Assembly: GCF_004570875.1 (NCBI RefSeq) | Contig: NZ_SPQK01000003.1 | Location: 186,001 to 250,000, forward strand | DNA: 64,000 nucleotides | Source of the DNA: Blastococcus sp. CT_GayMR16 | GTDB taxonomy: Bacteria; Actinomycetota; Actinomycetes; Mycobacteriales; Geodermatophilaceae | Direction: 5' to 3' | Shown: positions 28,432-40,825 of the stretch, in pieces | How the letters are laid out: the number at the start of each line of letters is the position of its first letter | Numbering within the stretch: the stretch's first letter is position 1 | Notes under the pieces: generated by a model | Database searches by the model: none | The model's input: the letters and a program-made list of their open reading frames with translations, nothing else | Told to the model about the DNA's origin: nothing | Program-made: the position numbers and the translations under genes

Positions 28432-29208
28432 TCAGAGCACGAACGGCGCCGGCGTGAGACCCGCGGCCTCCAGTGCGGCCCGCACGGCCCGCGCCAGCTC
28501 GACCGCGCCCGGGGTGTCGCCGTGCACGCAGACCGACTCGACCTGCACCCGCACCACGGTGCCGTCCACCGCGACGACCTCGCCGTCCGCGGCCATCCGC
28601 ACGGCCCGTTCGGCGACCGTGGCCGGGTCGTGCACCAGAGCGCCGGGCTCCCGGCGCGAGACGAGCGTGCCGGCCGGTGTGTAGCCGCGGTCGGCGAACC
28701 CCTCCCGGACCGTGCGCAGGCCCGCCGCCTCCGCCGTCCTCAGCAGCGCCGAACCGGGGAGCCCGAGGACCGGGAGCCGGTCGTCGAAGGCCGTGACCGC
28801 CCGCACCACGGCCGCGGCCTGCGCGTCGTGGTCCACGACCGCGTTGTAGAGCGCGCCGTGCGGCTTCACGTAGGCCATCCGGCTGCCGCTGGCGCGGGCG
28901 ATCCCGTCAAGGGCGGCGAGCTGGTACAGGACGTCGTCGGTCAGCTCGCCCGGTTCGACGTCGATGAACCGGCGGCCGAACCCGGGCAGATCGCGGTAGG
29001 ACACCTGGGCGCCGACGGTCACACCGGCAGCGGCCGCCCCCTCGCAGACCCGCCGCATGGTCGACGGGTCGCCCGCGTGGAACCCGCACGCCACGTTCGC
29101 GCTGGTCACGAGCCCGAGCAGGGCGTCGTCGTCCCCCAGCTGCCAGACGCCGAACCCCTCCCCGAGGTCGGCGTTGAGGTCGACGAGACGGGCCTCCGGA
29201 GTGGTCAC
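28432..29208 (-). CDS. pxpA: 5-oxoprolinase subunit PxpA (LamB/YcsF family)
   Basis: 258 residues. [12 protein letters not shown] at the start, [26 protein letters not shown] and [17 protein letters not shown] are all LamB/YcsF hallmarks. It is the hydrolytic subunit of the ATP-dependent 5-oxoprolinase. GTG 29208 is chosen by the position of the first conserved strand; the frame is open upstream. Separated from pxpB/pxpC by the ANTAR gene on the opposite strand, so it needs its own promoter, probably in the palindrome-rich region before 29366. Confidence 0.9.
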
Positions 29209-29279
29209 CGGCGCAGTCTGGCACCGGTGCCGCGCGGCGGCCCGCGCCTGGGGTCGATGTGTGGTCATGGCGACATGTC

Positions 29280-29334
29280 GACAATCAGTGGTCGATTGTC
29301 CACTGTGCGTATGCAATCCTGTACGTACAGGATT
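29280..29334. promoter_or_regulatory. Two palindromes in the pxpA / SpoIIE-phosphatase divergent promoter region
   Basis: GACAATC-N7-GATTGTC spans 29280-29300, and a perfect 20-bp palindrome AATCCTGTACGTACAGGATT spans 29315-29334. The stretch is clearly less GC-rich than its surroundings. It lies between the divergent starts at 29208 and 29366 and looks like operator sites for one or two dimeric regulators. Confidence 0.55.
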
Positions 29335-29365
29335 CAGTTCGTCCGCCGAGGGAGGTGACGACCCC

Positions 29366-31045
29366 GTGCCCACCTCCGGGATCGCTGCTCCTGCCCTCCT
29401 GGAGGCGCTGCCCGACGTGATCCTCGTGGCCGACGCCGCGGGCAACGTCGTCTACGCCAATCCGGCCGTCCGGTCGCTGCTGGGCCACGAGCCCGCCGAC
29501 CTCCGGGGTCGCTCGCTGGACGTGCTCATGCCTGAGCGGTTCCGTACGGCCCACAACCGCGGGTACTCACGGTTCCTGGCCACCGGGGTCGGCACGCTGG
29601 TCGGGGCGACGACGCAGGTCCCGGCCCTCCATGCGAACGGGTCCGAGGTCGCCGTCGAGCTCACCCTCTCCCGGCTCGACGGCGGACGTGAGGGAGCCCT
29701 GCCGGCCGGTGACGTCGAGGGCGCTCCCGCGGGTGGTGTCGTGGTCGCTGCCCTACGGGACGCGAGCACGACCATCCGCCTCGAGCGGCAGATCGAGGTC
29801 GCCCGCTACCTGACGGCCACTCTCCGGGTGACCGCCGCGCTCACCGAGGCGGCCGACGCCGACGTCGCGTTCGAGCAGCTCCTCCCCACCCTGTGCGCCG
29901 AGCTCGACTGGGACGCCGCCACGCTCTGGCAGCCGGAGGGCTGCGGCGGCCGACTCATCCATGCCGGGACATGGAGCGCTCCCGACGCCCCCGTGCCGGC
30001 GCTGGAGGCCGGCATCCGAGGTCGCGCGTTCAGCCGCGGCGAGGGCCTGCCGGGCCTCGCCTGGCAGCGGCGGGAACCGGTGGTCATCGAGGACCTCGGG
30101 AGCGACCCACGCTTCCTGCGCGGCGACGCCGCCCGGAGCGACGACCTGCGCACGGCCGTGGCCTTCCCGGTGCTGCGCGGCGACGACCTGCTGGCGGTCT
30201 GCGAGTTGTTCTCCCGCGAGCAGCGACCGGTGCCGCCCGAGTTGGTCGACGTGCTGGCCAGCGCGGGACGGCAGATCGGGCAGTTCCTGGCCCGGCTCCG
30301 CGCGGAGTCGGAGGTGCGGGGCCTGGCCGACACCCTGCAGCGCAGCCTTCTTCCCTCGCACCTGCCCGCCATTCCCGGGATCCAGCTCGCGGCGCGCTAC
30401 CGGGCCGGCGCGGAGGGCGTCTTCGTCGGTGGCGACACCTACGACGTCATGCCGCTCCCGGACGGGCGGTGGATGGTGCTCATCGCCGACGTCTGCGGAA
30501 CGGGCGCGGAGGCCGCCGCGATGACGGCCCTCACCCGTCACACGGCACGGGCCGCCTCGTCCACGGGCAACCCCGCCGAGGTGCTCTGCGCGGTGAACAC
30601 CGCCCTGCTGCACGAGCAGGGTTCGGGGCCGCTGCGGTTCGTCACCGCGTGCTGCCTGGTGCTGCAGCCGGGGCCCGGCGGGACGACGGCCCGGGTGGCC
30701 CTGGCCGGCCATCCACCACCCCTGCGCCGGGACACCGCGGGGGCGGTCACCGAGGTCGGTCTCGTGGGGCGTCCCCTGGGGATCGACCCGGACGTCGTGT
30801 ACGAGCAGGTCGACGTCGCACTTCCCCACGGCACGACCATGGTGCTGTACACCGACGGCGTCACCGAGGCCCGGGACGACGCCGGCGTCCAGTTCGGCGA
30901 GGCCGGGCTGATCGACGTCCTCCGGAGGACCGCGGCACTCCCGGCGGACGCGACGGTCGAGGCCGTCTCCGCGGCCGTGGAGCGGCAGGTCAGCGGATCG
31001 AGGTACGCCGCCGACGACCAGGCGGTGCTGGCCATCGGCTGCTGA
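29366..31045 (+). CDS. PAS-GAF-SpoIIE (PP2C) phosphatase
   Basis: 559 residues. A PAS domain (about 8-135: [27 protein letters not shown]), a GAF domain (about 160-310) and a SpoIIE/PP2C phosphatase (about 345-555). Metal-binding residues are present: [26 protein letters not shown] and [13 protein letters not shown]. Such proteins dephosphorylate anti-sigma antagonists (RsbV type) in partner-switching stress circuits; no anti-sigma or antagonist gene is in the window. GTG 29366 follows GGGAGG at about 11 nt. Regulated perhaps by the palindromes just upstream. Confidence 0.88.
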
Positions 31046-31060
31046 GCCGGTGCGCCCGGA

Positions 31061-31744
31061 TCAGCCCGTCTGACCCGTCACCGCGTGCGGCGCACCCACC
31101 GGCTTGGACTCCGGTGAGCCCCGCTGGCGGAGGTAGACGGTGAAGATCGCCATCGAGCCGACGGCGAGCATCTCCGACTGCCAGTTCTGCAGGGTCCGGT
31201 TCCAGAAGTCCGCGTGGCCGAGATAGCCCAGCCAGGTCACCGGGTCCTCGTGGCTGCCGAGCTGGTCGGAGTTGAAGGCCGCCCAGCCGGCCACCGAGGA
31301 CGACGCCCAGGTCAGCAGGAACAGCGTGCCCATGAGCAGACCGAGGGAGCGGGAGAAGACGGCGGTCCGCCACCCGCCGGCCTTCACTGCCGGCGGGGAG
31401 TCCCGCTTCGCGTGGGCGCCGACGCGCTGCTTCTCGTCGGACTCGGTGCCGGCCTCCTCGAGCTTCTTCGACTCCGCGGAACCGCGCTGGATCAGCCACA
31501 CGGTCGCGAAGATGTAGAGGAAGAACTGCAGGTACTCCGACTGCCAGTTCTCCATGACGTCGACCGCGAAGGACGACGACGTGAGGAAGCGACCGAGAGT
31601 GATCGGGTCCAGCCCGTCGGACACGCGCTGGTCGTTGAGGTCGGCGACGCCGGCGAACGCCTGGCCGACGAGGCTGAGCAGGAACAGCGCACCGAAGCCG
31701 AGGCTCAGGCTGTTCTCGCGGAGGAAGCGACGCACGCCGCTCAC
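31061..31744 (-). CDS. DUF6766 membrane protein
   Basis: 227 residues with four hydrophobic helices in two similar halves: FLRENSLSLGFGALFLLSLVGQAFAG ... ENWQSEYLQFFLYIFATVWLIQRGS, then SLGLLMGTLFLLTWASSSVAGWAAF ... QNWQSEMLAVGSMAIFTVYLRQRGS. The repeated NWQSE(Y/M)L and (L)RQRGS(A/P)ESK points to an internal duplication. GTG 31744 overlaps the stop of a 30-residue microprotein as GTGA. Function unknown. Confidence 0.82.
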   Translation of the reverse strand: MSGVRRFLRENSLSLGFGALFLLSLVGQAFAGVADLNDQRVSDGLDPITLGRFLTSSSFAVDVMENWQSEYLQFFLYIFATVWLIQRGSAESKKLEEAGTESDEKQRVGAHAKRDSPPAVKAGGWRTAVFSRSLGLLMGTLFLLTWASSSVAGWAAFNSDQLGSHEDPVTWLGYLGHADFWNRTLQNWQSEMLAVGSMAIFTVYLRQRGSPESKPVGAPHAVTGQTG

Positions 31745-31833
31745 CGCCCCAGCCAGCCGAGCGTCGTGAAGTAGACGATGCCGAGGAACAGGACCACGAG
31801 GTAGAGCACGTAGACCGCGCGGACGCCCTTCAC
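31741..31833 (-). CDS. 30-residue single-helix membrane microprotein
   Basis: GTG 31833 to TGA 31741 encodes 30 residues: a short basic start (VKGVRAVY), one hydrophobic helix (VLYLVVLFLGIVYF) and a short TTLGWLGR end. Its GTG overlaps the lipoprotein stop and its stop overlaps the DUF6766 start, both as 4-nt GTGA. Such double coupling, plus a clean membrane-helix pattern and positive-inside start, argues for real translation. It fills the space between two genes exactly. It is likely a subunit or regulator of the DUF6766 membrane protein; I know of no described family. Confidence 0.65.
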   Translation of the reverse strand: MKGVRAVYVLYLVVLFLGIVYFTTLGWLGR

Positions 31834-32231
31834 GAGCCCTCGACCTGGCACGTGTAGGGGAGGCCCGCGCCCTGCGACCGGCAGGCGGCCGCGGTGACCT
31901 TCCACCCGTCCGCCGTCCGGGTCAGGAAGACGGTGTCGTCGGTGAGGCGGGCCTGCGCCTCCTCACCCCACACCTCCACGGCGGTGACGTCGCCGCTGCC
32001 GACGGGAAGGTCGGCGATCGCGTCCTCGCAGGATGCACCCTCGCCCTCGACCAGCGCCTCGACGACATTGGCGGCGAGCAGCTGGCAGCGGGCCGCCGGG
32101 TCGTCCTCCGCACCGGCGAACGTCGCGGCCACGCTCTCCACCTCGTCGGCTCCCAGACTGCCGCAGCCGCTCACCAGCAACGCCGCGGCGCCGGTGAGGG
32201 CGACCGCCCAGCGTCTTTTCCGCGTGGCCAT
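31830..32231 (-). CDS. Small secreted lipoprotein
   Basis: 133 residues. Arg/Lys-rich start, hydrophobic helix and lipobox LLVSGC with lipidated Cys at about 23. The mature part has four further Cys residues (RCQLL, SCEDA, AACRS, YTCQV), which could form two disulfides, and resembles small actinobacterial lipoproteins of unknown role with an NTF2-like fold (GDVTAVEVWGEEAQARLTDDTVFLTRTADGWKV). ATG 32231 is preceded by AGGAG. First gene of an operon with the microprotein and DUF6766. Confidence 0.8.
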   Translation of the reverse strand: MATRKRRWAVALTGAAALLVSGCGSLGADEVESVAATFAGAEDDPAARCQLLAANVVEALVEGEGASCEDAIADLPVGSGDVTAVEVWGEEAQARLTDDTVFLTRTADGWKVTAAACRSQGAGLPYTCQVEGS

Positions 32232-32357
32232 CTGGCAGCTCCTGTCGACGTGGATCCCGTCAGGCCTACCCGACGCGATCCCGCACGCAAACGATCTTCA
32301 CCCGGTCGGGCTGCTCGGACGGTTGTCCGCCGCGTGCGGGACTGCCAGGGTCGCCGG

Positions 32358-32867
32358 GTGCGCATCGATCCGCCTGACTCAGGCCCCGAGCTCGACCAGC
32401 TGACCAGCTTCCTGGACCTGCAGCGGGCGACGGTGCTGTGGAAGACCGAGGGCCTCACCCGCGAGCAGCTGGCCCAGCCGCATCCGCCGTCGACGCTCAC
32501 CCTCGGCGGGCTGCTCAATCACCTGGCCCTGGTCGAGGACTCGTGGTTCCGGGTGCGGTTCGTGGGGCTGCCGGACGACGAACTGTGGGCGGGCATCGAC
32601 TGGGACGCCGACCCGGACTTCGAGTTCCGCACCGCGGCCGAGGTCGAGCCGGAGGAGCTGCGGCGCCGCTACGAGGAGGCGTGCGCCCGGAGCCGGGAGG
32701 TGGTGGCCGGGGCGGACAGCCTCGACCAGCTGTCGGTGGAGAGGCGGCGCACAGGGCAGCAGTTCGACCTGCGCTGGATGCTGCTGCACATGATCGAGGA
32801 GACCGCCCGGCACGCCGGGCACGCCGACCTCCTCCGGGAAGCCATCGACGGCGCGACCGGACAGTGA
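32358..32867 (+). CDS. DinB-family (DUF664) putative mycothiol-dependent enzyme
   Basis: 169 residues, four-helix-bundle DinB type. The metal His triad is visible: LLNHLALVE (first His) and MLLHMIEETARHAGHADLLRE (two more), with LTREQLAQPHPPSTLTLGGLL before it. DUF664 members are often mycothiol-dependent S-transferases; mshB in this window supports mycothiol in the host. GTG 32358 is used. Convergent with pepA, 7 nt apart. Confidence 0.85.
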   Translation: MRIDPPDSGPELDQLTSFLDLQRATVLWKTEGLTREQLAQPHPPSTLTLGGLLNHLALVEDSWFRVRFVGLPDDELWAGIDWDADPDFEFRTAAEVEPEELRRRYEEACARSREVVAGADSLDQLSVERRRTGQQFDLRWMLLHMIEETARHAGHADLLREAIDGATGQ

Positions 32868-35373: not shown

Positions 35374-38300
35374 TCAGCCCAGCGGGGAGCTCACGATGCC
35401 GCTGACCAGGTCCTTGACGTAGAGATCGCGCAGCCGGTTCGTGTCCGCAGAGACCAGCGCCTGCGACGTGGTGACGACGACCCGGTCACCGCTGAGGGCG
35501 ATCAGCCGCCCGTACTCGGCGGAGGTGATCGATCCGATCGGCCCCGCGGTGGCTCGGCCGTCGGCGTCGGCGGTCACCAGGACCAGCGGCCCGACCGTGC
35601 CGCCCGCCAGGTCGCGGCGGTAGTGGTCGGTGTGGCCGTTCGTGTCGCCCGCGAGCTCGGCGGCACTGGTGGCGAAGAAGGCGTACCGCCCCGTGGGGTC
35701 GAGCTCCACCTGGTGCTCCCACACCGTCTGCTGGCCGTCGCCCAGGGCGAGCACGCCGCCGGTCGCGAGGTCCATGCGATAGGCCAGCCCGGTGCTCCCG
35801 TTGGCCGTGGGCGTGGCGGTGGTGATGCGGGCGGCCGTCACCAGCGCCACGTAGCGGCCGTCGTCGCTGATGTCGACGTCCCCGAGGTCGCGGAAGACGG
35901 CGAACTGCGTCGCGTTGCCGGCCACCGTCACCGAGGACACGACGACGAGGTCTCCGGCGCCGGCGCCGGAGAGGGTCTTCCGGTAGAGCAGCGCCGCGCC
36001 GCTGGCGGAGGCGGCCGGGAACAATGCGAACCGACCGTCCGGTGTCAGCGCCAGCGCGGGACCGGTCGCCGCGCCGCCGAGGTTCCCTCCGGCCGTCGTC
36101 GTGGACACCCGCGTGACCACCCCGGTGGAGATGCGCTTGGCGAACAGGTCGACGACGCCGTTCGTGTCGCCGGCGACGAGATCGGTGCGCGCGGAGTAGA
36201 AGAGGACGAGGTCGCCGTCGGCGGACATGACGACCGGCGGACTCGTCGCGTAGACCGACGAGCCGGTGTGCAGGACCGCCCCGGCGGTCGACCCGTTCAC
36301 CGCACCGCCCGCGGGCACGCTGACGAGCGACCACGTGCCCGTCGCGGTGTCGCGCCGGTAGACGTCGGGAAGTCCGTTGGTGTCGCCGGCCACCAGCGAC
36401 GCGGTCGTGGTCAGGACGATCGAGCTGCCGTCGGCGCTGATCACCGGCGCCGCGGTGTTCGTGGAGTCGGCGGCACCGGTCGCGCCGGCGGACAGCGGCG
36501 CGATGCGCGTGGCGGTCCCTGCGGTCCGGTCGAGGACGTACAGCTCGTAGGCCGTATTGGTGTCGGCAGGCACGAGCCGCGCCCGGGTCCCGACGACGAC
36601 GTACCGGCCGTCGCTGCTGATCGTGAGCCCCCCGGCCTCTCCCGCGCCCAGAGCGGGCACGGCTGGCGAGACGGGGGTGATCGCGGCAGTGAGGGCCGAC
36701 GGCGCCGAGACGCGACCGCCGGCGTCCACGGCGGCCACCATGAACCGGTAGGACGTCCCGTTCGTCAGCCCGCTGACCGCGGCCTGCGTGGTGGGTGCCG
36801 CCGCCGTGGCGAGCACCGTGCTGCCGTCGTCGGCGAGCACGCGGTAGCTGACGACGTCGGCATCGGCGGGCGCGGTCCAGCTGACCACGGCCCGGCGGTC
36901 CCCGGGCGATGCGGTGACACCCGTCGGCGGGGCGGGCGCGGCGTCCACCGGTGTCCCGGGCACCGGCGCCGACTCCGCCGACCGGTTGCCGGATGTGTCC
37001 ACCGCGGCCAGCGTGTAGGTGTACGTGATCCCGTTCGTACGGCCGGTGTCGAGGTAGGTCGTCCCGGTCACGGTGACGATCTCCACGCCGTCCCGCAGCA
37101 CCCGGTAGCTCGCGAGGTCGGGCTCGCCGTTCGCGTTCCAGGCCAGGCTCACCTGGCCTTCGCCCGGCGCGGCCGCGAGGCCGGAGGGCACCGCCGGCGG
37201 GGTGACGTCGGCCGGCGTCACCGTCGACGCGACCGACGCCGACGACCGGTTGCCGTGGGTGTCGACCGCCACGATCGCGTACGTGAAGGTCGTCCCGTCG
37301 GGCCGGCCGTTGTCCGAGTAGGTCGTGCCGGTAACGGTGGCGATCTCCACGCCGTCGCGCAGCACCCGATAGGTCGCCAGGTCCGGCTCGCTGTTCGCGG
37401 TCCAGGTGAGGTCGATCCTGCCGCTCCCTCGGATCCCGACCAGGCCGGTCGGTGCGGCCGGAGGGGTGAGGTCGGTGGGGGTCGCCGAGGCGGGCGACGA
37501 CGCGGCGGAGCGGTTGCCGGCGTTGTCGACAGCGACGATCGCGTACGAGTACGACGTGTCGTTCGTCCGGCCGGCGTCGAGGTACGACGTGCCCGGGACG
37601 GTGGCGATCTCCACGCCGTCCCGGAGGACCCGGTAGCTCGCGAGGTCGGGCTCGGCGTTCGCCGTCCACGACAGGCTGACCTGTCCCTCGCCCCGCGTCG
37701 CCACGACCCCCGTCGGGGCGGCCGGGGCCGTTCCGTCGGCCGGAGTAGCCGTGGCCGGCCCCGACGCCGGGGACCGGTTGCCATGGCTGTCCACGGCGAC
37801 CAGTCGGTAGGTGGAGGAGGTGCCGTTCGTCCGGCCGGTGTCGAGGTAGGAGGTGCCCGTGACCGCGACGATCTCCACGCCGTCGCGCAGCACCCGATAG
37901 GTCGCCAGGTCCGGCTCGGCGTTCGCCGTCCACGACAGGCTCACCTGCTGGTCACCGGAGCCGGCGGACAGCCCCGTCGGCGCGGCCGGCGCGGTCAGGT
38001 CCGTGGGCGTAGCGGTGACCGGCAGCGACGCCGCCGACCGGTTGCCGTGGGTGTCGACCGCGGCGAGCGTGTAGCTGTAGGTCGTGTCGTTGGTCAGACC
38101 CGTGTCGAGGTAGCTGGTGCCGCTCAGGCCGACGATCTCCACCCCGTTCCGCAGCACCCGGTACGTCGACAGGTCGGTCTCGACGTTCGCCGTCCACGAC
38201 AGGCCGACCTGTCCGTCGCCGGGGGTGGCGACCACTCCGGTCGGCGTCGCCGGCGCGCCCAGGTCCGTGGGGGTGGCGGTGTCCGGGGAGGACGACACCG

Positions 38301-39810
38301 ACCGGTTCCCGTGGGTGTCGACGGCCACGACCGTGTAGGTGTAGGCGGTGTCGTTGGCCAGCCCCACGTCGACGTGGCCGGTGCCGCCGGTCACGGTGGC
38401 GATCTCCACCAGGTTCCGGACCACGCGGTAGCTAGCCAGGTCCGGCTCGACGTTCGGGTTCCACGACAACGTCACCTGGCCGTCGCCCCGCGAGGCCACC
38501 AGCCCGGTCGGCGGATCGGGTGGCGTCAGGTCGGTCGGGGTCACGAGAACGGCGGCGGTCGGGGCGGACCGGTTGCCGTGGGAGTCGACGGCGACGAGCG
38601 TGTAGCTATAGGTCGTGTCGTTGGTCCGCCCGAGATCCATGTAGGTCGTGGCGGTGACGGTCGCGATCTGGACCCCGTCGCGCAGCACCGCATAGCCCGC
38701 CAGGTCGGGCTCGGCGTTCGGGTCCCAGGCCAGCCCGGCGCGCCCGTCGCCCCGCCCGCCGACGAACCCCGTCGGGGTCGCGGGGGCGGTCAGGTCGGTC
38801 GGCGTGGCCGATACGGCGGGCGAGGAGGTCGGTGACCGGTTGCCGTGGCCGTCGACCGCCGCGATCGAGTACGCGTAGGTGACGTCGTTGGTCCGGCCCG
38901 GGTCGACGTAGGACGTCCCGACGACCGTGGCGAACTCCACGCCGTCACGCAGCAGCCGGTAGGTCGCCAGGTCCACCTCGGGGTTGGCCGCCCACGTGAG
39001 GCTCACCTGCCCGTCGCCCCGGGTCGCGAGGAGGCCGGTGGGTGTCGCCGGCGCCGTCAGGTCGGTCGGTGTCGCGCTCACCAACGGGGTGGAGGACGAC
39101 GACCAGTTACCGGAGGTGTCGTGCGTCTGGACGGCGTAGCCGTACGCGACGTCGTTGGTGACCGTCGTGTCGAGGTAGCCGCTCGTGCCCGAACCGTTGA
39201 GGAGGCCGGTGAGGGGAAGCCCGTCGCGCACTACCCGGTAGCCGTCCGCGTCGTAGTCGGCGGAGTTCGTGACCCAGGAGAGAGTGACCCGGCCGTCGCC
39301 CCTGACGGCGGCCACCCCGGTCGGCGACGCCGGGACCACGGAGTCCTTCGGCGTTCCGGTGACCGCCGAGCTCGGCGTCGTCCCCACGTAGGTGGTGCCG
39401 AGGAAGAACGTCACCGTGGTGACGGTGACGACGTAACCGCGGCCGTTGACCAGGCCGGTGACGGTGGCCGAGGTCCCGGTGGGGCTGGCGACGAGGGTGC
39501 CGTCGAGGAAGACGCGATAGCCGCTGATGAAGGTCTCGGCCGGTGCAGTCCAGGAGATGTTCAGTGCCCGGTCGATGGGCGCCGGGTTCACATTCGTCGG
39601 AGGGGCCGGGCTCGTCGTGCTGGCCAGCCGCAGCGGCGGCGCCGGCAGCGCCGCAGGCCCGCAGGTGGTGCCCGCCGCGAGCACCAGCACGAGCAACGCC
39701 AGGGCGCCGCTGACCACCGTGCGGGCGCGGGAGCGCCGGCGCCAGGGATCGGCGCCGTCCAGCAGGGTCACGAGTGCCTCCGGTCGCGCACCCGCGGTCG
39801 GCGGACGCAT
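35374..39810 (-). CDS. Giant exported protein: 11 fibronectin type III repeats plus a beta-propeller-like domain
   Basis: 1478 residues. A cytoplasmic start (1-27) and one hydrophobic helix (about 30-48, ending near GTTCG) act as signal or anchor. Residues about 68-1047 hold eleven FnIII domains; numbers 3-10 repeat every 88 residues and share DLASYRVLRDGVEIATVTGTSY...(G)RTNDTTY(S)YT(L)VAVD(T)HGNRS and PTDLTAPA(T/A)PTG linkers. The last 430 residues look like a TolB/PD40 propeller with ISxDGRYVV blades and five (G/A)DTN-x3-(D/E)(L/V)Y(V)x(D) loops that could bind calcium. Extracellular, perhaps carbohydrate or surface binding. No LPXTG motif. ATG 39810 has no strong SD. The near-identical repeats imply recent internal duplication. 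Confidence 0.85.
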   Translation of the reverse strand: MRPPTAGARPEALVTLLDGADPWRRRSRARTVVSGALALLVLVLAAGTTCGPAALPAPPLRLASTTSPAPPTNVNPAPIDRALNISWTAPAETFISGYRVFLDGTLVASPTGTSATVTGLVNGRGYVVTVTTVTFFLGTTYVGTTPSSAVTGTPKDSVVPASPTGVAAVRGDGRVTLSWVTNSADYDADGYRVVRDGLPLTGLLNGSGTSGYLDTTVTNDVAYGYAVQTHDTSGNWSSSSTPLVSATPTDLTAPATPTGLLATRGDGQVSLTWAANPEVDLATYRLLRDGVEFATVVGTSYVDPGRTNDVTYAYSIAAVDGHGNRSPTSSPAVSATPTDLTAPATPTGFVGGRGDGRAGLAWDPNAEPDLAGYAVLRDGVQIATVTATTYMDLGRTNDTTYSYTLVAVDSHGNRSAPTAAVLVTPTDLTPPDPPTGLVASRGDGQVTLSWNPNVEPDLASYRVVRNLVEIATVTGGTGHVDVGLANDTAYTYTVVAVDTHGNRSVSSSPDTATPTDLGAPATPTGVVATPGDGQVGLSWTANVETDLSTYRVLRNGVEIVGLSGTSYLDTGLTNDTTYSYTLAAVDTHGNRSAASLPVTATPTDLTAPAAPTGLSAGSGDQQVSLSWTANAEPDLATYRVLRDGVEIVAVTGTSYLDTGRTNGTSSTYRLVAVDSHGNRSPASGPATATPADGTAPAAPTGVVATRGEGQVSLSWTANAEPDLASYRVLRDGVEIATVPGTSYLDAGRTNDTSYSYAIVAVDNAGNRSAASSPASATPTDLTPPAAPTGLVGIRGSGRIDLTWTANSEPDLATYRVLRDGVEIATVTGTTYSDNGRPDGTTFTYAIVAVDTHGNRSSASVASTVTPADVTPPAVPSGLAAAPGEGQVSLAWNANGEPDLASYRVLRDGVEIVTVTGTTYLDTGRTNGITYTYTLAAVDTSGNRSAESAPVPGTPVDAAPAPPTGVTASPGDRRAVVSWTAPADADVVSYRVLADDGSTVLATAAAPTTQAAVSGLTNGTSYRFMVAAVDAGGRVSAPSALTAAITPVSPAVPALGAGEAGGLTISSDGRYVVVGTRARLVPADTNTAYELYVLDRTAGTATRIAPLSAGATGAADSTNTAAPVISADGSSIVLTTTASLVAGDTNGLPDVYRRDTATGTWSLVSVPAGGAVNGSTAGAVLHTGSSVYATSPPVVMSADGDLVLFYSARTDLVAGDTNGVVDLFAKRISTGVVTRVSTTTAGGNLGGAATGPALALTPDGRFALFPAASASGAALLYRKTLSGAGAGDLVVVSSVTVAGNATQFAVFRDLGDVDISDDGRYVALVTAARITTATPTANGSTGLAYRMDLATGGVLALGDGQQTVWEHQVELDPTGRYAFFATSAAELAGDTNGHTDHYRRDLAGGTVGPLVLVTADADGRATAGPIGSITSAEYGRLIALSGDRVVVTTSQALVSADTNRLRDLYVKDLVSGIVSSPLG

Positions 39811-39919
39811 GCTGTTTCTCGGCACCGGAGTCGGCGGTCTTGAGCCAGAAACGACCCGCCACCCGCGGGAGTGACGACCCGAGACCGACAGCGCCGCGCT
39901 CCGCCGAGCCGCGGCCGAC

Positions 39920-40825
39920 TCAGCGCGCGGCGGCGTCCAGGCTCTCGATGCTCGGCTCCGGCCGTGTCGGCCGGCCCTTGCGGGTGGCGAGCACACAGCC
40001 GGCGAGCACCAGCGGGAGGCCGACGGCGATGCCGAGGGTGAACGGCTCGTCGAGGAGCAGGACGCCGAGGAGCACCGCGACGGCCGGGTTCACGAAGGTG
40101 ATGACCAGCGCGCGCTGCGGGCCCACCTCGCGGATGAGACTGAAGAAGAGCGCCAGGGCCAGCGCGGTGCAGACGACGCCGAGTCCGACCAGCGAGAGCC
40201 AGGCCGGGACGGACACGTCCGCGAGCTGGTCCAGGTCCCCCAGGGCGAACGGCGCGTAGACGACGGCGGTGACGAAGAGGGCGATCGAGCTGGCGGCCAC
40301 GCCCGGCACGTCGGGCAGTGCCCGGGTGACGACGAGCGGGCCGGTCGCGTACCCGATCAGCACCAGCCCGATGGCCAGCAGGGGCAGGACCTGGGCCCCG
40401 TCGAGGTCCAACCCCAGGAGGACGCCGATACCGACGACGCCGATGGCCATGCCGAGGATGCGGATGGGTGTCAGCCGCTCCTCCTCCCCTGCCAGCCGCG
40501 CGGCGATCGCGGCGACGAAGGGGACACCCGCGACGAGCAGCCCGGTCAGGGAGCTGGACAGCGATCCCTCGGCGTAGGCGATGAGCAGCCAGGGGCCGGC
40601 CATCTCCAGCACCGTGAAGAGCAGCAGCGCGCGCCAGTGCCGCAGGGCCGGCCGCAGCTGACCCTTGGCGATCGTCCAGGGCAGCAGCAGGGCGGCGCCG
40701 ATGACGCAGCGCGCAAACACCAGCATCACCGGCGACACCTCGTCGACCGCGATCTTGATGAGCAGGTACGGCACGCCCCAGATGACCGACATCGCCAGGA
40801 ACAGGACCCACCCGCGCCGGCTCAT
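39920..40825 (-). CDS. EamA-family (DMT) transporter
   Basis: 301 residues, ten membrane helices in two EamA halves: AMSVIWGVPYLLIKIAVDEVSP at the start of the first and LSLVGLGVVCTALALALFFSLIREVGPQRALVITFVNPAVAVLLG in the second. RhaT/YdcZ-like exporters of this kind move amino acids or other metabolites; substrate unknown. ATG 40825. It follows the SRPBCC gene by 64 nt on the same strand and may belong to the dapE-LOG transcript. Confidence 0.85.
   Translation of the reverse strand: MSRRGWVLFLAMSVIWGVPYLLIKIAVDEVSPVMLVFARCVIGAALLLPWTIAKGQLRPALRHWRALLLFTVLEMAGPWLLIAYAEGSLSSSLTGLLVAGVPFVAAIAARLAGEEERLTPIRILGMAIGVVGIGVLLGLDLDGAQVLPLLAIGLVLIGYATGPLVVTRALPDVPGVAASSIALFVTAVVYAPFALGDLDQLADVSVPAWLSLVGLGVVCTALALALFFSLIREVGPQRALVITFVNPAVAVLLGVLLLDEPFTLGIAVGLPLVLAGCVLATRKGRPTRPEPSIESLDAAAR

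Follow-up and report, generated by a model that had tools for sequence, protein, structure and literature searches.

Introduction

Among the closest described systems, KdpF is a single helix that binds a large partner at its membrane part, the MetS-like small subunit of NSS transporters is a very short one-helix subunit, and AcrZ is encoded apart from its partner. The described cases differ in how much detail is at hand. For AcrZ, the single helix has been seen bound to the membrane part of its large partner AcrB (PMC7267776, in the part available to us). CydX, the small subunit of cytochrome bd oxidase, has 37 residues in the E. coli enzyme according to the sections of the source that we draw on (PMC4325964); its gene shares an operon with that of the multi-pass partner, is often left unannotated (80 of over 300 homologues), and is coupled to a subtype of that partner.

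Here we describe a minus-strand operon of Blastococcus sp. CT_GayMR16 (genome 4.52 Mb) with the gene order lipoprotein, microprotein, DUF6766. It lies in a stretch of 64,000 nucleotides, the whole of which is referred to as the window. A sequence-only reading of the window had proposed the microprotein gene, and had named conservation of its frame and overlaps before DUF6766 genes elsewhere, as well as selection on its 30 codons, as ways of checking the proposal.

Results

The microprotein frame runs on the minus strand from a GTG at 31833-31831 to a TGA at 31743-31741 and translates into VKGVRAVYVLYLVVLFLGIVYFTTLGWLGR (30 aa). These coordinates confirm what had been claimed, namely a GTG-to-TGA frame of 30 codons with GTGA overlaps at both ends, and supply the strand, which the claim had not named (Table 1). 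An alternative in-frame GTG further upstream, which would give a protein of 54 aa, is not favoured over the 30-codon start, because the latter keeps the 4-nt overlap as well as a Shine-Dalgarno-like GAGGG and recurs in relatives. The nearest named relatives of the DUF6766 protein are found in the Geodermatophilaceae, e.g. in Blastococcus, Modestobacter and Geodermatophilus. As for the surroundings of the operon, a gene for a PAS-GAF-SpoIIE phosphatase (window 29057-31045, plus strand) is convergent with the DUF6766 gene, and a gene for a mycothiol S-transferase (DinB-like; 32250-32867, plus strand) is divergent from the lipoprotein gene. Further away, a 1540-aa open frame (35374-39996, minus strand) looks by eye like an extended array of fibronectin type III-like repeats.

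Table 1. Features of the operon, in window positions
Feature	Position	Strand	Remarks
Promoter of SigF/SigB type, GTTT-N17-GGGTA	32267..32292	-	ends 35 nt before the lipoprotein ATG
Lipoprotein gene	31830..32231	-	133 aa, lipobox LVSGC
Shine-Dalgarno-like GAGGG of the microprotein gene	31837..31841	-	within the last lipoprotein codons
GTGA overlap, lipoprotein stop and microprotein start	31830..31833	-	
Microprotein gene	31741..31833	-	30 codons and a TGA stop; single membrane helix
GTGA overlap, microprotein stop and DUF6766 start	31741..31744	-	
DUF6766 gene (PF20554)	31061..31744	-	227 aa, two repeats, 38% identity

Long chance frames are common in GC-rich DNA, and the first question is whether the microprotein frame is one of them, an untranslated opening in a GC-rich gap. 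The window holds seven frames of 20-45 codons that overlap by 4 nt at both ends with open frames of 90 or more codons. Of these seven, only the microprotein is hydrophobic enough for a membrane helix. The same 30-codon frame was found directly before DUF6766 in all 30 family loci that were first fetched, and a profile grown from these loci matched, at E below 0.01, 136 of the 151 loci that have a DUF6766 match by tblastn (out of 153 in the set). Run against 21,651 other frames from these loci, the profile did no better than E = 5.1. One further locus (L148, profile E = 0.38) was counted as positive on the basis of position and sequence; many of the 137 microprotein loci are the same genomes obtained through two collections, and 110 are non-redundant.

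This association extends to larger samples, in which the frame and its place before DUF6766 are conserved. In 112 family genomes all 40 kept DUF6766 places (of 47, the rest being partial matches, many of them half-length relatives) have the microprotein directly upstream and, conversely, all 40 microprotein places (E up to 2.3e-4) adjoin DUF6766, the next match (E = 0.0103) lying inside a 425-codon frame. A class sample of 394 genomes showed the microprotein at 44 of 56 kept near-full-length DUF6766 places (of 82, with partial matches again set aside). The 12 places without it comprise ten rows of a separate DUF6766 clade, clade B (see below), and two others, G322 and G488. Of 46 microprotein matches in this sample (E up to 0.0025), 44 adjoin DUF6766, one belongs to a split operon in G322, and one (G333, E = 0.001) was dropped since it lies within a 600-codon frame. 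Coordinates compared by eye in 296 genomes of a phylum sample placed all nine strong matches (E up to 1.3e-7) next to DUF6766, seven of the nine genomes being already in the family or class samples; the frames that hold five weaker ones (E 5.6e-4 to 0.0095) are 70 to 1134 codons long. No microprotein match passes the thresholds at any of the dropped DUF6766 places, and family and class matches with E from 0.01 to 1, most of them in long frames, were left uncounted. Three genomes (G062, G110 and G372) carry two DUF6766 copies, each with its own microprotein gene.

The codons themselves point the same way. Over 42 disjoint locus pairs, the microprotein has a pN/pS of 0.55, whereas the same substitutions placed randomly give 1.04 (sd 0.08, minimum 0.86 in 300 trials), and pN is smaller than pS in 37 of the 42 pairs. 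By this measure, the 30 codons are under purifying selection, which answers the dN/dS-type check that had been proposed for them. In codon alignments the microprotein again gives 0.55 and the lipoprotein a similar 0.52, while selection is stronger on DUF6766 (0.34) than on the microprotein. The most conserved positions are R5, F8, L12, I15, G18, L19, G26 and R30, and conservation follows the helix turn with moderate significance (p = 0.018). With conservation, clade pattern, selection and the sole helix-grade frame among seven in the window all against it, we reject the chance frame, the probability of which we regard as negligible. On these sequence comparisons, the microprotein frame is a real gene for a conserved one-helix membrane protein, which is 27-30 residues long across relatives.

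How is this gene translated along with its neighbours? A 4-nt overlap joins the lipoprotein stop to the microprotein start in 62 of 102 non-redundant loci that have both, and the microprotein stop to the DUF6766 start in 86 of 108. In 52 of 100 loci both junctions overlap in this way. Of the 110 non-redundant loci, 93 have a Shine-Dalgarno-like motif before the microprotein gene, as compared to 19/110 and 17/102 at control places. The same motif is found before DUF6766 in only 3 of 86 loci when the genes overlap, and in 14 of 22 when they are separated by a gap. Since the motif precedes the microprotein gene and rarely an overlapping DUF6766 gene, DUF6766 probably receives its ribosomes from the microprotein gene. 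Termination-reinitiation needs very short distances, and we infer that ribosomes load at the microprotein gene and would reach the overlapping DUF6766 gene in this manner.

The position of the motif and the 4-nt overlap in 86 of 108 loci would also be expected if the frame were a leader or coupling cistron only, loading ribosomes for DUF6766 while its peptide stays idle. We consider this improbable, as the amino acids are conserved across distant genera and under purifying selection. Moreover, in two loci (L049, in genome G488, and L116) the lipoprotein gene directly abuts DUF6766, so that no spacer cistron is needed, and G322 keeps a microprotein gene away from DUF6766. Folding of the RNA here is unremarkable (z = -0.18), and an Rfam search gave no match at E up to 0.1; an RNA-level explanation is rejected on the same two results.

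The window DUF6766 protein matches PF20554 over model positions 2-221 of 221 with 323.4 bits, compared to a gathering cut-off of 27. Its halves are 38% identical (E = 1e-16), and the duplicated-helix character that had been read from the sequence thereby stands. The protein probably has four membrane helices, as counted from the sequence, and positive charges that follow helices 2 and 4 would place its two NWQSE loops on the outer face. A search of solved structures by sequence returned only YcgR, at E = 0.5. Half-length relatives with one repeat and the NWQSE motif occur in other actinobacteria (L070, L232-L248), and 3 of 18 have a SigF-like site upstream by a loose pattern. In two loci of Blastococcus sp. 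TML/M2B (L027 and L094) the DUF6766 frame is seemingly shifted near its start, leaving no in-frame start after the microprotein, which seems to be a sequencing error or decay.

The lipoprotein sequence shows the lipobox LVSGC. We aligned 74 relatives, drawn from the 92 of 102 that have a recognised lipobox; the conservation of the lipobox in this alignment is one of choice, because members were picked by it. Besides the lipobox, five residues are invariant, four Cys and one Trp. Two disulphide bonds and an NTF2-like fold would be guesses: DUF4878 was matched (E up to 0.1) by four of the 74 members, the window member not among them, while the unrelated families DUF7460 and C_GCAxxG_C_C were matched by six and four, and matches to designed NTF2 chains were weak (E 0.6-0.9). 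Judged by its occurrence across loci, the lipoprotein is the less constant member of the operon. In a set of 29 loci DUF6766 recurs as a neighbour in all 29 and the lipoprotein in 22; no further cluster exceeds 5, and no neighbour beyond the three operon genes was general in these loci.

A midpoint-rooted tree of 131 DUF6766 rows (L058 left out) splits with 100/100 support into clade A, with 116 rows from Actinomycetota including Solirubrobacterales, and clade B, with 15 rows from four phyla (other actinobacteria, Alphaproteobacteria, Deinococcus and Spirosoma). The microprotein gene is present in 113 of the 116 clade A rows and in none of the 15 clade B rows. Four gains or losses of the microprotein were counted on this tree, three of them forced by well-supported branches, with a bootstrap that had not settled. 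Clade B proteins belong to the same Pfam family and are 36-43% identical to the window DUF6766, but unlike in the window neither a microprotein nor a recognised lipoprotein lies beside the 15 tree rows. A search that made no use of the profile, in the 160 nt before 23 clade B-type DUF6766 genes (the 15 tree rows and eight plasmid loci placed by 37-40% identity), found one hydrophobic small frame (L202), which is unlike the microprotein family. Fixed differences between the DUF6766 proteins of the two clades lie in and around the helices, e.g. at Q67, F73, W82, M137 and W145; these positions are candidates for a contact surface, and no more than that.

Within clade A, the lineages of L049 and L116 seem to have lost the microprotein, which would make it dispensable in places. 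The L049 genome gave only a chance-level match (E = 0.975) and the L116 genome none, an empty answer that by itself shows little. In G322 the operon is split, with lipoprotein and microprotein together at one place and DUF6766 alone elsewhere (L207 = G322:C1:668000-676000, and L208). That the microprotein stays with the lipoprotein here, and not with DUF6766, would fit a microprotein that partners the lipoprotein, or the interface between lipoprotein and DUF6766, rather than DUF6766 itself. Conversely, 8 of the 110 non-redundant loci have microprotein and DUF6766 without a recognised lipoprotein, although some of these lipoproteins may have been missed. With the root at the midpoint, three of the eight (L147, L152 and L143) are the earliest branches of clade A. 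We therefore deem a lipoprotein partner unlikely, and retain DUF6766 as the one partner with which the microprotein is both genetically linked and co-inherited.

Upstream of the operon, GTTT-N14..18-GGGTA occurs in 29 of 110 loci, as compared to none on the opposite strand, an average of 0.08 in shuffled sequence (a crude shuffle by base pairs of letters) and 0.61 expected from its density. The narrower GTTT-N15..17-GGGTA is concentrated in the Geodermatophilaceae (22/39), with 2/9 in Pseudonocardia and neighbours, 1/23 in others, and none in Streptomyces (0/14), Streptosporangiales (0/16) or Promicromonosporaceae (0/9). Looser patterns recover part of the loci that lack it, including 7/9 for Pseudonocardia and neighbours. 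No sigma-70 promoters or terminators were found in window 30900-32500.

The consulted parts of three sources give GTTT-N(14-19)-GGGTA as the SigF promoter consensus of M. smegmatis (PMC4694148), GGWWT-N16-17-GGGTAY as a SigF consensus (PMC7693655), and promoters of SigB homologues of Streptomyces coelicolor that agree with the operon motif (PMC8346170). The window promoter shares its consensus with the SigF regulon of Mycobacterium smegmatis, the membership of the operon in such a regulon being read from the motif. The 4.52-Mb genome has six exact GTTT-N15..17-GGGTA sites, one of them being the promoter of the operon, and one for the pattern read backwards. Another exact site lies 129 nt before an RsbW-like gene (HATPase_c_2 domain), which precedes the only match to a SigBFG sigma factor over cut-off in the genome. 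A consensus promoter before the operon and a sigma factor of the corresponding type are both present. A third exact site is presumably part of a 16S gene. Outside the operon, the SigF-like sites L226-L229 are found ahead of a gene for a putative membrane protein, ahead of two further open frames, and ahead of the RsbW-like gene.

SpoIIE-type phosphatases often regulate sigma factors of the SigF/SigB type. Among 30 family loci taken with 1.5 kb flanks, the window locus included, 14 have a gene for such a phosphatase convergent beside DUF6766, and the gene is syntenic in part of the Geodermatophilaceae. The gene neighbourhood of clade B offers an independent hint of stress. Around stand-alone DUF6766 genes of Alphaproteobacteria, stress-type genes (ferritin-like, general stress protein, catalase, Hsp20, low-affinity iron permease, DNA ligase D) occur within about 4-5 kb in 9 of 11 annotated loci. 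They amount to 15 in about 101 kb, whereas control stretches totalling 147 kb on three of the plasmids hold 1; in this comparison the loci, four of them from Agrobacterium, are not independent, and the word list was drawn up with the loci already in view. An alphaproteobacterial stress promoter motif precedes DUF6766 in only 2 of the 11 loci, and three Deinococcus loci and one Spirosoma locus have no such stress neighbours.

The description of the system as undescribed holds as far as searches of curated families, structures and literature go. The window microprotein matches no curated family: against Pfam, NCBIfam and solved structures nothing but FixQ was returned (E = 1.2), with no match to a solved structure by sequence at E up to 1. 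In the literature searched, no text names DUF6766 or PF20554, and a paper on a pipeline for small membrane proteins (PMC10903887) does not contain the words Streptomyces, Actinobacteria or lipoprotein in the part available to us. That the gene is too short for usual gene callers, as had been suggested, agrees with four annotated Streptomyces plasmid records, whose gene tables, incomplete by their own description, do not list it at the place set by profile or hydrophobicity; one of these incomplete tables does not list the lipoprotein either.

Small membrane toxins are of comparable size and hydrophobicity, and the microprotein might be a toxin, or a free membrane-acting signal, unrelated to its neighbours. 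With no convincing orphan copies besides the split operon, tight coupling to DUF6766, no sign of a structured RNA and no PADLOC match, such a role appears very improbable. A phage or defence origin was likewise rejected: no DUF6766 relatives were found in viral contigs with a single-protein query, PADLOC gave no match, and PHROG one weak match to DUF6766, from a family of unknown function.

Discussion

In our joint reading, which we consider probable while leaving real room for doubt, the microprotein is an accessory one-helix subunit of clade A DUF6766, made by coupled translation as part of an envelope unit under control of a stress sigma factor. A SigF/SigB-type general-stress sigma factor would switch this unit on. 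Ribosomes would load at the microprotein start and proceed to DUF6766 by termination-reinitiation, which would hold the two proteins at a fixed ratio and possibly let them meet during synthesis. The 27-30 residue single-helix protein could then pack via F8, L12, I15, G18, L19 and G26 against the DUF6766 bundle, with the Cys-rich domain of the lipoprotein on the outer face, beside the two conserved NWQSE loops, and the unit as a whole may help to protect the envelope under stress. So what would the microprotein itself contribute? A stabilising or regulating role is the likeliest. The membrane complex that the sequence-only reading had suggested is plausible in the light of co-inheritance, coupling and the stress promoter; the clade restriction, the likely ribosome-loading site and the putative SigF/SigB-type promoter are what the present analysis adds to it.

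A wider claim is put forward tentatively, as we give it slightly less than an even chance: that this is an undescribed three-part envelope complex under a stress sigma factor, widespread in Actinomycetota and usually with one gene missing in annotation, in which the one-helix subunit of 27-30 residues both marks one of the two ancient clades of its large partner and serves as the main cistron at which ribosomes load for that partner. With only 27-30 codons, a conserved gene has probably been overlooked in many actinobacterial genomes. It provides a handle on DUF6766, a family without assigned function, and would tie that family to the general stress response. Furthermore, clade A next to clade B, the lineages of L049 and L116 in which the microprotein seems lost, and G322 in which it has moved make the contribution of a one-helix subunit to its partner testable.

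How, then, does this locus relate to the described one-helix proteins? Weak profile matches to the MetS-like families NF033493/PF16951 were seen in 6/57 (best E 0.0018) and 3/57 (best E 0.023) relatives. The window microprotein itself has no MetS match in NCBIfam or Pfam, and no NSS transporter gene is among the conserved neighbours of 29 loci; what the profiles pick up may be nothing beyond short hydrophobic helices in general. In the consulted part of a review of methionine transporters (PMC8140960), the whole words 'MetS' and 'small subunit' do not occur. KdpF was not matched in Pfam, and CydX was matched in neither Pfam nor NCBIfam by any of 57 microprotein members. The likeness to AcrZ and KdpF is that of a single-helix protein of a large membrane partner, with binding seen there and predicted from sequence here; unlike AcrZ, which is encoded elsewhere than its partner, the microprotein shares an operon with DUF6766. 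CydX is the closer parallel, being likewise a small protein in the operon of a multi-pass partner, often unannotated and tied to a partner subtype (PMC4325964, in the sections used here). Its partner is CydAB, however, whereas the window gene lies beside lipoprotein and DUF6766 genes rather than cydAB, has DUF6766 as its partner and, unlike CydX, precedes that partner and carries a likely ribosome-loading site. That DUF6766 divides into clades, of which one has a small subunit to match, is reminiscent of CydX and the CydA subtypes, and in our best reading the operon would encode a stress-controlled envelope unit that is like CydX or AcrZ in kind, not in family.
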